From: Candidatus Altimarinota bacterium
Lineage (GTDB): Bacteria; Patescibacteriota; Gracilibacteria; BD1-5; UBA2023
DNA length: 64,000 nucleotides
NCBI GenBank assembly: GCA_028714815.1
Contig: JAQTLR010000001.1
Span: forward strand, 1 to 64,000
Direction of reading: 5' to 3'
A model generated the notes under the pieces. That model saw only the letters and a list, made by a program, of their open reading frames with translations. It ran no database searches and was not told the origin of the DNA. The position numbers were made by a program, and so were the translations under genes. Shown here piece after piece: positions 48,449 to 53,003 of the stretch; the stretch's first letter is position 1, and each line of letters opens with the position of its first letter.

Positions 48449-48482
48449 ATTTGGTATTATTAATACCACTTGTTTGAACATT

Positions 48483-49628
48483 ATGTTTAATCGATCAATA
48501 CTAAAAAATATCCAAGAGCACCTCTTCCGTGGCGACGTTATTATGCTCATTGGACCTCGACAGGTAGGGAAAACAACGCTTGTGGAAACGCTCGTTTCTG
48601 AGGTTTCTACATCCGAAGTTATCAGGTTCAATGGGGACTATCCGGCAGATCGTAGATATCTCCAGATTGATTCATCCACTCAGGCTGATCTGATTTTTTC
48701 ATCGTATCGATACATTATTATCGATGAAGCACAAAAAGTTCCAGATATTGGTAATATCCTCAAGATTCTCGCGGATAGATACAAATCTACAAAACAAGTG
48801 ATCGTGACGGGATCAAGTACACTCGGTCTCCTTGATCAGACCTCCGAACCTCTCACGGGACGGAAGCAGGTATACAATCTCTATCCGATCGCATTTGAAG
48901 AAATCGTTTCCACTTTCGGAATTCGCGACGCGGAAACACTTCTCGAATCAGTACTTACTTATGGATCCTATCCACAGGTCCTTTCTTTTCCAGATGCCGA
49001 ATCAAAAATCCGAAAACTTCAAGATCTTGTTTCAGGGCAGCTCTATCGAGACATTTTAGAATTTCAGGAAATAAAGAATCCTGACGTACTGTCAAAACTT
49101 CTTGAAATGCTCGCACTCCAAATTGGATCGGAGATATCGTATCATTCACTCGCTCGGGAATTAGGAATCAGTCAGCAAACGGTGGAAAAATATATTGATC
49201 TTTTGGAAAAAAGCTTCGTCATCTTTCGTCTTCGTCCCTATATGACGAATAAGAAAAAGGAAATTACCAAAATGAAAAAAATTTATTTCTTCGATCTCGG
49301 TATCCGCAATGCGCTTCTCAGGAATTTTAATCCACTATCACTCCGAAGCGACACGGGGGCACTCTGGGAAAACTATTTTATTCTCGAACGGAGAAAGATT
49401 ATCTCCTACCATGAACTCGGTTTTGAACAACGTTTCTGGCGTACGAAAGCTCAGGAAGAAGTTGATTATCTTGAGGTAGGAGCAAAGATCGAGAACGTTT
49501 TCGAATGCAGATGGAAAGATCAGAAATACCGGGCACCAAAAGCATTTACAGGAGAATATCCTGATACTGAGGTTCAATTGGTACATTCGGGGAATTACAA
49601 GAATTTTCTTGTTTTCACCAAGAAATAA
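48483..49628 (+). CDS. AAA_14/DUF4143 ATPase, probably acquired
   Basis: A 381-residue protein with a AAA ATPase domain (GDVIMLIGPRQVGKTTLVETL, IIIDEAQKVPDIGN, VIVTGSSTLGLL) and the C-terminal DUF4143 nuclease-like domain (FWRTKAQEEVDYLE). The HTH-like linker SYHSLARELGISQQTVEKY is also typical. This family is widespread, often mobile, and its role is unclear (suspected defence or regulation). It has no in-frame UGA. Start ATG 48483 is chosen; a TTG nine bases upstream is possible. Confidence 0.88.
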   Translation: MFNRSILKNIQEHLFRGDVIMLIGPRQVGKTTLVETLVSEVSTSEVIRFNGDYPADRRYLQIDSSTQADLIFSSYRYIIIDEAQKVPDIGNILKILADRYKSTKQVIVTGSSTLGLLDQTSEPLTGRKQVYNLYPIAFEEIVSTFGIRDAETLLESVLTYGSYPQVLSFPDAESKIRKLQDLVSGQLYRDILEFQEIKNPDVLSKLLEMLALQIGSEISYHSLARELGISQQTVEKYIDLLEKSFVIFRLRPYMTNKKKEITKMKKIYFFDLGIRNALLRNFNPLSLRSDTGALWENYFILERRKIISYHELGFEQRFWRTKAQEEVDYLEVGAKIENVFECRWKDQKYRAPKAFTGEYPDTEVQLVHSGNYKNFLVFTKK

Positions 49629-49817: not shown

Positions 49818-50036
49818 TGGTGGGATGGGCGGGCTCTTTCTGTTCAATGTCGCACCGACTGTCGTCGGATGCTCGTTTCACAGAACGCGCTCGACCGAAA
49901 GCCAAATTCTATTGGCTTTCTCTTTTTTTCGTTCCACTCCGAAAATGTCTCACGTTCGAGCCCATTCCTGCAAATTCCACATAAAAATCAAAAGACCCAC
50001 ACTTTCGTGTGAGTCTTTTTGGATTTTCATGGTGGG
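49818..50036. repeat. About 220-bp repeat, copy A, with tRNA-Lys 3' end
   Basis: Starts TGGTGGGATGGGCGGGCTC, the complement of the 3' end of tRNA-Lys (one G shorter), continues through three hairpins and ends GATTTTCATGGTGGG. Nearly identical to 52715-52936. The flanking 49629-49817 holds only a terminator, and 50037-50194 nothing recognisable. Confidence 0.9.
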
Positions 50037-50194
50037 TCCGCCAAGACCAGCCAGTAAAAACCTACTCATTTGTTTTAGCTTTAAAAGAAGGAAACTCGGG
50101 AAGGCGAAAGTGAAGTCAAAACTGTAATTTTTAGCTTAACCCTCTCATTTTTTAATCTGTATTTAATTTTCGAGCCATTGCACATAAAGGAAAT

Positions 50195-50225
50195 AAAAAA
50201 TCCCCCCTAAAAAAAAGGGGGGGGT
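50195..50225 (-). terminator. Terminator of the radical SAM/peptide operon
   Basis: Minus strand stem CCCCCC-N8-GGGGGG followed by ATTTTTT, 20 bp after the small peptide stop. Confidence 0.75.
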
Positions 50226-50244
50226 GGTGCAAGTAACCTTGCAG

Positions 50245-50388
50245 TTACTTCTTGCAGCAGTCGCCAGTAGTCACTCGTGTGCGGATTATGCCGCGTTGTT
50301 GATCACGAATGACACTGTCGACTTGTGCCATGGTTTTGCCACGTTCCATTGGAGCGATTTTGGCAGGGGTTTGTGTTTGTGTTTTCAC
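50245..50388 (-). CDS. Putative RiPP precursor peptide (47 residues, C-terminal CC)
   Basis: GTG start at 50386-50388 with AAGGA six bases upstream, ending at UAA. The peptide begins MKTQTQTPAKIAPMERGKTM, continues with a basic/Thr-rich segment and ends in TGDCCKK. It follows the radical SAM gene by 129 bp in the same transcript and is closed by a terminator. Radical SAM/SPASM maturases are normally encoded next to a short precursor whose C-terminal core they modify, often at Cys; the vicinal Cys pair fits that role. No UGA. Not recognised as a known precursor family. The evidence is positional and compositional only. Confidence 0.55.
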   Translation of the reverse strand: MKTQTQTPAKIAPMERGKTMAQVDSVIRDQQRGIIRTRVTTGDCCKK

Positions 50389-50517
50389 GATTTTTCCTTC
50401 ACAAAGATTTGTTGCGAAATAGGGGAGTAGGTTTGTACCTGTTCCGGTTTTGTTTGAAGTAATATTTGTATTTATCTGGTTTTTGTAACTCCTTTCGTTA
50501 AAAAGTTCGGATTTATT

Positions 50518-51891
50518 CTATCCATTTTTAATAAATTGCAAGACTCTTTGAACAATATCAACCTCATGAAGCTTATGTTCTGGGCAAACTACGTCATTTT
50601 GTTTGAGGTTGTTAAGTCCACAGCTTTTACTGAAGCAATTAAGAGCAAAGAAACACTCTTGGCACTTTTCATGCTTGAAGAGAGAGTCTTCAGTCCAAAA
50701 ATCCCACTTATCCGATCTGTGAATAATCCCATCCGTATCGATATACCCAGTTTTGTTTATTGAACCGTTTACAGCAAGTGTACATTTTTCGATAGGCATT
50801 CCACCATTCAATGCTTCACTTATCGGATAAGCAATGATGTTATTCGGTTTGCTGGAGTAACAGTGATTTGAGCCAGGACCACTAAATAGTACCATGGGGA
50901 CGGTATTAAGTCCCATTGATTCCAGTTCGTGCTCCATTTCTGTCTGCAATTGAGTTCCTTCATCTTCTGTGCAGTACAGTTCCCCATCATGTGCCTCTTC
51001 TTTCCAATTACTAATCATCTGAACCATGAAAATGAAACGATCATCATCGCCAAAATCACTTTTTAATTGATCAAAGAACTTTTTTCGACTTTCCGTGGAA
51101 GCGGAGGATCGATTAAAATTCATACGTATGGTGATTGAGAAAAAATACTCCTCTTTTGGTAGGTGAGAAATGGAGACGAGATTTTGGTATATCCTTTCAA
51201 ATGTTGGCTTACCGTTAACAAGGGGGCGATATTTATTATGGAACTCTTCAGTTCCATCGAGCGTAATCTGGTATGTAGTAATCCGAAGATTCAACAATTC
51301 CAGAAAAAGCTTTCTGTCAAGAAGAAAACCATTGGTAGTCATAGATGACGAGAGAAATGTGAATTTTCCAGAGTCAGCAAGCTCAATCATTTTGGAGTTG
51401 AATTTCTTTATGAATTTTGCGTTCAACAAAGGTTCACCACCAAAATAATCAACCCTGAAAGTTCGAGGATTCCATTTACTGATAAATTTCTCAAGTATCC
51501 CGAGTTCAGATTCCCCCATACGAGAACGCTTATTGTGATCCTCATGACAGTAAACACAGGAAAAATTACATTGCTGATCCGCTGGCATGAGCACGAGGTT
51601 GAGGTTTTCCAAATTTCTGGATTCCTCATAGAGTACTCGAGCATCTTTTCGTGATTCATCCTGAGATATCACAAGAAATTTATTGGCAACAAGATACTCA
51701 AAATCACCAGAATCTCCATTTACTTTAAACGGAGCAATTCTTTTATTTCCTCCAGTTTGAACAAAAACGTATATTGGGTGATTCGAGTCAGTGATCCTGA
51801 CATTTTCAGAATTGAGCCAGTTATACATAATCAAGGCTCCATCCTGGTCAAAAAAACGAGTAACAAGAAAAGAAATTGTGTAGTCTTTCAT
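50518..51891 (-). CDS. Radical SAM/SPASM peptide maturase
   Basis: A 457-residue enzyme. The radical SAM motif CNFSCVYC (C108, C112, C115) binds the catalytic 4Fe-4S cluster; FGGEPLLN and TTNGFLLD follow as in the family. A C-terminal SPASM-type region has CTLAVNGSIN, then CQECFFALNCFSKSC and VVCPEHK, for auxiliary clusters. The start MKDYTISF is chosen because AGGAGA precedes it by 7 bases. No UGA codon, unlike the neighbouring GNAT gene, and stop UAG. SPASM proteins modify ribosomal peptides (thioether, C-C bonds) or act as anaerobic sulfatase maturases; no sulfatase is near, and a small Cys-ending peptide is. Confidence 0.85.
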   Translation of the reverse strand: MKDYTISFLVTRFFDQDGALIMYNWLNSENVRITDSNHPIYVFVQTGGNKRIAPFKVNGDSGDFEYLVANKFLVISQDESRKDARVLYEESRNLENLNLVLMPADQQCNFSCVYCHEDHNKRSRMGESELGILEKFISKWNPRTFRVDYFGGEPLLNAKFIKKFNSKMIELADSGKFTFLSSSMTTNGFLLDRKLFLELLNLRITTYQITLDGTEEFHNKYRPLVNGKPTFERIYQNLVSISHLPKEEYFFSITIRMNFNRSSASTESRKKFFDQLKSDFGDDDRFIFMVQMISNWKEEAHDGELYCTEDEGTQLQTEMEHELESMGLNTVPMVLFSGPGSNHCYSSKPNNIIAYPISEALNGGMPIEKCTLAVNGSINKTGYIDTDGIIHRSDKWDFWTEDSLFKHEKCQECFFALNCFSKSCGLNNLKQNDVVCPEHKLHEVDIVQRVLQFIKNG

Positions 51892-52059
51892 TTTATTTCT
51901 CCTAAGCATAGAATGTTAATGATCATTATTGAAATATATTTTATTATATTGTCAATGTTCAAAATTGAGTATATCCAACTAAAAAATTTGTCAATATCAT
52001 TTTTTTTTGTAATATGAATGGGATAAAAGCTCCTTTACTTAAACTTTCTATAAATACCT

Positions 52060-52587
52060 ATGAATATAACAATCTTCCCTGCAAATCCATCAGACGCTAT
52101 CTTTATATCTGAGATCAATTCACAAACATGGTTCGATACATACAAGAGCGAGGAATATTGAATCACTGAGGAATTAGTGAAAAGTTTTCCAGAAGATAAT
52201 GAGTGAACAACTGCTTTTATAAAGCGAAAAGAGAAAGAGATTTCTGATAATTTATGAAGTTATTTTCTTGTCAGAGATGATGAGAAGGTTATTTGATATG
52301 CTAATTGAAAAATTTATCCAACAAAGCCTTTTAATGAACTTTCTGGAATATATCTTTTGCCAGAATATCAAAGGCAATGAATATGAACACAATTAGCCGA
52401 GATGGTTCTTAATTATCTATGAAAAGAAAAAGACGTTATTGTTGAGGTGGTATGATATAATCAAAGAGCTATCAATTTCTATAAAAAACTTTGATTTGTC
52501 TTTGTGCAGGAATTAGAAAAGTTCGAAATTACTGATGGAATTTGGGTTCCTGAGGTTCGGATGCTAAAAAAAATATCTAGGGATTAA
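52060..52587 (+). CDS. GNAT family N-acetyltransferase, hidden by UGA recoding
   Basis: A 175-residue gene with ten in-frame UGA codons among about twelve Gly codons; the standard code shows no frame here at all. The acetyl-CoA motif is clear: YLLPEYQRQGIGTQLAEMVL, with both Gly of the pyrophosphate loop encoded by UGA. Motif B follows (VGYNQRAINFYKKLGFVF). Substrate unknown; amino groups of small molecules, antibiotics or proteins are possible. Divergent from the radical SAM gene inside the repeat-bounded island. Heavy UGA use shows it is at home in a table-25 genome. Confidence 0.88.
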
Positions 52588-52646
52588 GTTTAATTGTTTA
52601 ATATAAATTTTGGAATAAAACCTGAATATTCATTAAAATTTACACT

Positions 52647-52695
52647 AAAAAATCCCTCTTTATAAGCAGATTTATCGCTTAATAGAGGGATTTTA
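52647..52695 (+). terminator. Terminator after the GNAT gene
   Basis: Stem AAAATCCCTCT-N-AGAGGGATTTT extended by TATAAGC / GCTTA, followed by T-rich sequence. Confidence 0.7.
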
Positions 52696-52714
52696 TGTGT
52701 TTACAAATTTAACA

Positions 52715-52936
52715 TGGTGGGATGGGCGGGGCTCTTTCTGTTCAATGTCGCACCGACTGTCGTCGGATGCTCGTTTCACAGAACGCGCTCGACCGAAAGC
52801 CAAATTCTATTGGCTTTCTCTTTTTTTCGTTCCACTCCGAAAATGTCTCACGTTCGAGCCCATTCCTGCAAATTCCACATAAAAATCAAAAGACCCACAC
52901 TTTCGTGTGAGTCTTTTTGGATTTTCATGGTGGGAT
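52715..52936. repeat. About 220-bp repeat, copy B, with tRNA-Lys 3' end
   Basis: Starts TGGTGGGATGGGCGGGGCTC, the complement of the tRNA-Lys 3' end, and runs into the real tRNA-Lys gene. Nearly identical to copy A over its length. Internal hairpins: ACCGACTGTCGTCGGAT, GAAAGCCAA-N6-TTGGCTTTC and the tRNA terminator. Confidence 0.9.
52887..52918 (-). terminator. Terminator of tRNA-Lys
   Basis: Minus strand stem AAAAAGACTCACAC / GTGTGGGTCTTTT with loop GAAA, then GATTTTT. Also present in repeat copy A. Confidence 0.75.
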
Positions 52937-53003
52937 GGGCGGGGCTCGAACCCGCGACCTTGGCCTTAAAAGGGCCCTGCTCTACCTACTGAGCTACCAT
53001 CCC
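52928..53003 (-). tRNA. tRNA-Lys (TTT)
   Basis: Acceptor GGGATGG / CCATCCC, anticodon loop CTTTTAA (TTT), T-stem GCGGG / CCCGC with loop TTCGAGC, discriminator A and encoded CCA. Its 3' end is duplicated in repeats A and B. Confidence 0.93.

Follow-up and report, generated by a model that had tools for sequence, protein, structure and literature searches.

A candidate radical SAM/SPASM RiPP cassette on an islet inserted at a tRNA-Lys gene in a Gracilibacteria genome

Does the short reading frame that follows a radical SAM gene in a Gracilibacteria genome encode a peptide on which that enzyme acts? CPR bacteria have very small genomes and live on other microbes, and how they act on their hosts and rivals is largely open. 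The locus lies in the window, the stretch of 64,000 nt analysed here, which comes from a 1.2-Mb genome in which TGA encodes glycine; in-frame TGA codons are present in the genes neighbouring the pair. A sequence-only reading had proposed a precursor–maturase pair at this locus, and the proposal is strengthened by a predicted RiPP recognition element (RRE) in the enzyme, by the enzyme's relatives among RiPP maturases, and by Shine-Dalgarno (SD)-led frames with a Cys-Cys (CC) tail at distant CPR loci. We conclude that the locus is in all likelihood a horizontally acquired two-gene RiPP cassette, in which the maturase would act through its RRE on a 47-residue peptide.

The maturase gene (50518–51891, minus strand; ATG start, TAG stop) encodes 457 residues, comprising the RRE domain at residues 1–96, then the radical SAM barrel, and SPASM cysteines between 344 and 436; it has an SD sequence, AGGAG, at 51899–51903 (minus strand). 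The candidate precursor gene (50245–50388, minus strand) begins with GTG and encodes the 47-residue peptide VKTQTQTPAKIAPMERGKTMAQVDSVIRDQQRGIIRTRVTTGDCCKK, read from 50388 to 50245, with the C-terminus TTGDCCKK. The ribosome binding site, the vicinal Cys pair at the C-terminus and the terminator of the sequence-only reading are all present, the SD sequence AAGGA being at 50395–50399 (minus strand) and an intrinsic-terminator-like hairpin (CCCCCC, loop, GGGGGG, T-rich tail) lying 3′ of the gene at 50202–50222 (minus strand). The two genes are 129 nt apart, and a terminator scan of that strand found none in between, suggesting that they share one transcript. They differ in base composition, with a G+C content of 0.50 in the peptide gene and 0.38 in the enzyme gene. 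Both are free of TGA codons (0 of 26 glycine codons in the maturase gene), and the pair should therefore be expressible in E. coli unchanged.

Taken alone, one CC frame is weak evidence, because about 3% of SD-led frames of 25–60 residues have CC in their last 16 residues by chance (5 of 155 in the window, this frame counted); the pairing is credible because it recurs in other genomes. The window peptide has no match in NCBIfam (up to E 10) or Pfam (up to E 1), in agreement with the earlier remark that its precursor family was unrecognised, and no NCBIfam model matches the CC peptides of the other loci. The one match of the peptide among relatives, in G143 (E 0.055), falls in a region of long overlapping frames that shows neither a gene for a small peptide nor a radical SAM partner, and is attributed to chance; a plasmid match at E 2 was also rejected.

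The small frame is in register with the enzyme, from which it is separated by one TAG followed by 43 open codons (50389–50520), as would be expected if it were a remnant or read-through extension of the maturase. From base composition, however, we estimate a probability of several per cent that a stretch of 43 codons stays open by chance; the frame also has its own SD sequence and start, and other CPR loci have a separate peptide gene, placed before or after the enzyme at a variable distance. We therefore regard a read-through origin as very improbable. A strong SD sequence, AAAGGAG, which is unused, also lies within 50389–50520.

The radical SAM and SPASM features attributed earlier to the enzyme were both found. 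It scores 50.8 bits with the Pfam Radical_SAM model (PF04055, cut-off 29.5), which places it in the superfamily, and Cys108, Cys112 and Cys115 form the cluster motif CX3CX2C. Seven cysteines conserved in the alignment, at 344, 370, 410, 413, 419, 424 and 436, make up the array characteristic of SPASM maturases, with X4 in place of X3, the spacing being CX2CX5CX4C where CX2CX5CX3C is usual; the same extra residue is found in a Deinococcus enzyme (L036). The SPASM model TIGR04085 is absent among the 25 NCBIfam matches listed for the enzyme. A viperin-like identity (PADLOC pVip, 38 bits) was rejected, since this match covers only the common SAM barrel.

The best NCBIfam matches are RiPP maturases, and the enzyme lies below the curated cut-off of every named maturase family. 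The top match is TIGR04463 (rSAM_vs_C_rich; 131.4 bits, E 4e-38, residues 18–435, cut-off 525), followed by FlmE/OhkG (NF052473; 108 bits, cut-off 500), the geopeptide maturase (TIGR04280; 99.3 bits, cut-off 400), CefB (NF038107; 87.4 bits, cut-off 600), the Clo7bot maturase (TIGR04334; 84.4 bits, cut-off 600) and PapB (NF047865; 76.3 bits over the core, cut-off 340). In the TIGR04463 family the enzyme likewise lies beside a Cys-bearing small peptide, but the core of that peptide is Cys-rich, whereas the window peptide has two cysteines only and its enzyme falls well under the cut-off. The geopeptide, Clo7bot, CefB and FlmE/OhkG maturases belong to the same wider radical SAM/SPASM peptide-maturase group, but align only in part (84–108 bits) and have cut-offs of 400–600 bits that the window enzyme does not reach. 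PapB, a ranthipeptide maturase that is likewise a radical SAM/SPASM enzyme, joins Cys to Asp/Glu (PMC9413430), but its Cys-Asp/Glu spacing pattern is not repeated in the window peptide. Since the enzyme falls under all NCBIfam maturase cut-offs and the peptide is unmatched, the pair appears to represent an undescribed family within the known kind of radical SAM RiPPs.

Structural comparisons place the enzyme more closely. An AlphaFold model of the full-length protein, built from a 31-sequence alignment (pLDDT 83), matches CteB (residues 7–455, Z 25.6) and TigE (residues 1–457, Z 21.1) over its whole length, with SuiB and SkfB also among the matches. CteB (PDB 5wgg, 5why) has the same succession of RRE, SAM barrel and SPASM domain and forms thioethers, but is 15–16% identical to the window enzyme; its substrate, CteA, belongs to the SCIFF peptides and contains six cysteines. 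TigE is tied to a different product class, cyclopropylglycine. Residues 1–96, modelled alone (pLDDT 88), have the β3-α3 order typical of the PqqD-like RRE, and match TigE (Z 6.7 over 91 residues), TbiB1 (6.4), ThcOx (6.0), the PbtF RRE (5.6), lasso B1 (5.5), McbB (4.9), PqqD (4.7), SuiB (3.8) and CteB (3.2), as well as MccB. The individual Z-scores are moderate (3–7), but most of the matching structures are RRE domains, and it is the agreement of the list that is telling. No Pfam RRE family matches the N-terminal segment, where the domain is seen by fold comparison only. In the model, then, the N-terminal 96 residues fold as an RRE, the feature by which RRE-bearing RiPP maturases are recognised, and a leader-bearing peptide substrate is therefore expected.

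The same comparisons bear on whether the enzyme could be an anaerobic sulfatase maturase (anSME) or some other non-RiPP SPASM enzyme. Over residues 95–457 it is anSME chains that give the highest Z-score (27.3), but their alignment begins only at residue 95, the RRE of the window enzyme being additional, and the sulfatase maturase model TIGR03942 gives it 55 bits, far below the cut-off of 349. The sequence-only reading had named a sulfatase partner as the finding that would speak against a precursor–maturase pair, and there is none among the neighbours examined. We give an anSME-like function the least credence of the readings considered here.

Conservation of the small frame beside orthologous radical SAM genes, which the sequence-only reading had looked to, could not be assessed in its strict form, there being no close ortholog of the enzyme in 147 relatives (six of the same genus), none of which holds the pair; it is seen in the wider family. 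Single-protein searches of genome contigs and viral contigs found no close relatives of the enzyme, and a 380-genome sample of the phylum yielded distant relatives of it and no close ortholog of the pair. At four loci of this sample an SD-led small frame with CC near its C-terminus lies beside the enzyme, the tails being ...GKKICCGSSYKEQANK (L018), ...RKCCGAAFKEQVE (L019), ...KDSCCGARK (L022) and ...KDSCCGSRK (L031). Two loci that entered through enzyme similarity have the tails ...GKACCGGAYVK (L042, from a Saccharibacteria genome) and ...SAFSPCCRGS (L066, from a 0.6-Mb genome), and at L016 and L017 a frame ending ...NGGRCCRGQV, a few bases past the enzyme stop, was noticed only after these enzymes had joined the family.

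At all eight CPR loci with a radical SAM enzyme of the window family (the window included, L066 counted outside), an SD-led frame that has CC among its last 16 residues thus adjoins the enzyme gene on the same strand. Among small frames, the CC tail is found in 8 of 18 that are near and on the same strand versus 3 of 59 controls on the other strand or farther off (Fisher p 2e-4, an optimistic value because half of the eight CPR loci raised the hypothesis). CPR radical SAM loci outside the family in the same sample (L020–L030) yielded a single CC frame, which lies on the opposite strand, within an enzyme gene; outside CPR, a CC frame occurs at 4 of 43 loci, L066 being among the four. Related loci therefore have what is expected of a precursor–maturase pair, a small gene beside the enzyme for a putatively leader-bearing peptide. 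It could still be argued that the window frame is accidental and that the enzyme modifies a substrate encoded elsewhere, given the chance rate of CC-tailed frames and the unlike composition of the two genes. The SD sequence, spacing, terminator and position of the frame, the same arrangement at all eight CPR family loci checked, and the leader-bearing substrate implied by the RRE make this unlikely.

The CC peptides themselves vary greatly. The window peptide is 9–28% identical to the others, and apart from the CC tail it resembles them only in having an N-terminal part that is basic and polar; at such low identity, homology of the peptides is a possibility that the shared tail does not establish. 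The Cys pair is the sole constant feature among the CPR peptides, and its contexts (GDCCKK, KICCGSS, KACCGGA, RKCCGAA, DSCCGARK, DSCCGSRK, GRCCRGQ and SPCCRGS) contain no conserved acceptor residue. Loci outside CPR often carry other C-terminal Cys patterns, such as ...QCCVDHLCGCK (L049, L141) and ...INIIAC (L056), and some have none; the closest relatives of the window enzyme, from Kurthia (L062) and Longirhabdus (L056), lie beside small frames without CC. Kurthia and Parageobacillus maturases of the window enzyme's clade are followed by Cys-free frames of 28 residues (MRVLRPATKPVKNVKSGRIMKTVPGNLN and similar; L062 4348–4434, L069 4397–4483) that form a conserved family of their own.

Further genes accompany some of the CC loci. 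At L022 (2773–3441) and L031 (2611–3291) a conserved third gene past the enzyme encodes a protein with an HEDTH...E motif and a weak match to Peptidase_MA_2, which is a candidate for the leader peptidase at these loci. A nucleoside-phosphorylase-like gene adjoins both CC loci of the Saccharibacteria type (L041 2055–2798, L042 4525–5259) and perhaps serves to salvage 5′-deoxyadenosine.

In a tree of 44 enzymes, those associated with CC peptides in CPR fall in four places: a Saccharibacteria-like group, L016 and L017 with L066, L022 with L031, and the window enzyme, which forms a long branch amid enzymes from Bacillota, Deinococcus and Streptomyces. A single clade uniting the CPR enzymes with the window enzyme was considered and rejected, as the tree demands four changes. 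The CC tail was either inherited from the ancestor of a wider group and retained in CPR, or arose repeatedly; its recurrence beside four distinct lineages of the enzyme suggests that a single chemical outcome was selected several times.

A mechanism can be proposed for the pair by reference to the modelled fold and to known enzymes. The RRE predicted by the model would grip the N-terminal leader of the 47-residue peptide, and the radical SAM [4Fe-4S] cluster would cleave S-adenosylmethionine to give the 5′-deoxyadenosyl radical. As the intact CX3CX2C motif and the fold suggest, this radical would abstract hydrogen from a residue close to the C-terminus of the peptide, while the two SPASM auxiliary clusters would accept the electron and may coordinate a Cys thiolate. 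The product would most likely be a thioether that joins either cysteine of the pair to a carbon close by, and removal of the leader and export would depend on proteins encoded elsewhere in the genome.

If the pair is real, a thioether is, by analogy with CteB and PapB, the likeliest single outcome, with perhaps an even chance of being correct; the remaining likelihood falls to other radical chemistry at the CC tail. Such alternatives find room because the CC pair has no conserved acceptor residue beside it, and could include epimerisation, a C–C or C–O cross-link, or modification of the cysteines themselves, with the two free thiols serving metal binding or redox chemistry. The Cys-free small frames paired with Kurthia and Parageobacillus enzymes of the clade, and the presence of TigE among the top full-length structural matches, are consistent with such chemistry. 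In favour of the thioether, on the other hand, the Cys pair is the one constant of the CPR peptides, many non-CPR members have further C-terminal cysteines, and the best full-length match is the thioether-forming CteB. We consider non-thioether chemistry possible but the less probable of the two.

The pair is carried on an inserted islet of ~3.1 kb (49818–52927) at the 3′ end of a tRNA-Lys (TTT) gene (52928–53003, minus strand), its presumed integration target, with an att-like core at 52928–52943. Direct repeats of ~220 nt bracket the pair together with a GNAT acetyltransferase gene (52060–52587, plus strand) that is divergent from it. Both repeats start with the final 16 nt of the tRNA-Lys, TGGTGGGATGGGCGGG; the left repeat occupies 49818–50036 (plus strand) and the right repeat 52715–52934 (plus strand), extending into the tRNA gene. 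In the sister species G004 the upstream sigma-factor gene, terminator, tRNA-Lys and DinG-like gene are contiguous, with 49818–52927 missing exactly between the copies of the tRNA 3′ end. The islet was thus inserted at the tRNA 3′ end. It contains no enzyme that could have moved it, and no protease or transporter.

In the GNAT gene TGA accounts for 10 of the 12 glycine codons, far more than the 0–5 TGA codons per gene among the neighbours. Since TGA encodes 10 of 12 glycines in the GNAT gene versus 0 of 26 in the radical SAM gene, the islet seems composite; a functional link between the GNAT protein and the enzyme–peptide pair is unproven. The TGA-free enzyme was also considered as proof of a standard-code donor, for which it is weak evidence, as the neighbour at 48483–49625 likewise has none among its 19 glycine codons and others have only one or two. 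This neighbour encodes an AAA_14/DUF4143 ATPase (48474–49628; PADLOC candidate PDC-S01, 457 bits) and is missing at the same place in G004, so that it is possibly a second insertion adjoining the islet. In another sister species of the genus, G005, a retron-like reverse transcriptase and an OLD/AriA-like ATPase lie upstream of the same tRNA-Lys (L225 8380–12557). The site is a probable hot spot for accessory and defence genes.

A radical SAM RiPP pair on an insertion in a CPR genome is a candidate, open to experimental test, for the source of a diffusible or surface peptide, and the enzyme–peptide pairs are short enough for direct synthesis and assay. We put forward, as a rather doubtful generalisation, that ultra-small symbiotic bacteria have repeatedly joined unrelated radical SAM/SPASM lineages to peptides in which an isolated vicinal Cys pair is the one constant core. 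This would amount to a new RiPP class whose core is reduced to two residues; in the present genome it would reside on an islet targeted to a tRNA gene and be employed in contact with hosts or rivals. The earlier statement that peptide natural-product systems are little described in UGA=Gly CPR bacteria needs a qualification, as RiPP gene clusters, the graspetides, are reported in CPR bacteria (PMC8939145), but these are made by ATP-grasp ligases and not by radical SAM enzymes. Radical SAM RiPPs in Gracilibacteria or Saccharibacteria were not found in the open literature (subscription papers aside), although this is no proof of absence. A genome of the same class (G658) contains another candidate RiPP pair, in which a radical SAM gene is followed by a Cys-rich peptide of 67 residues, CHCWCST...CNCQCDC (L234 555–758).
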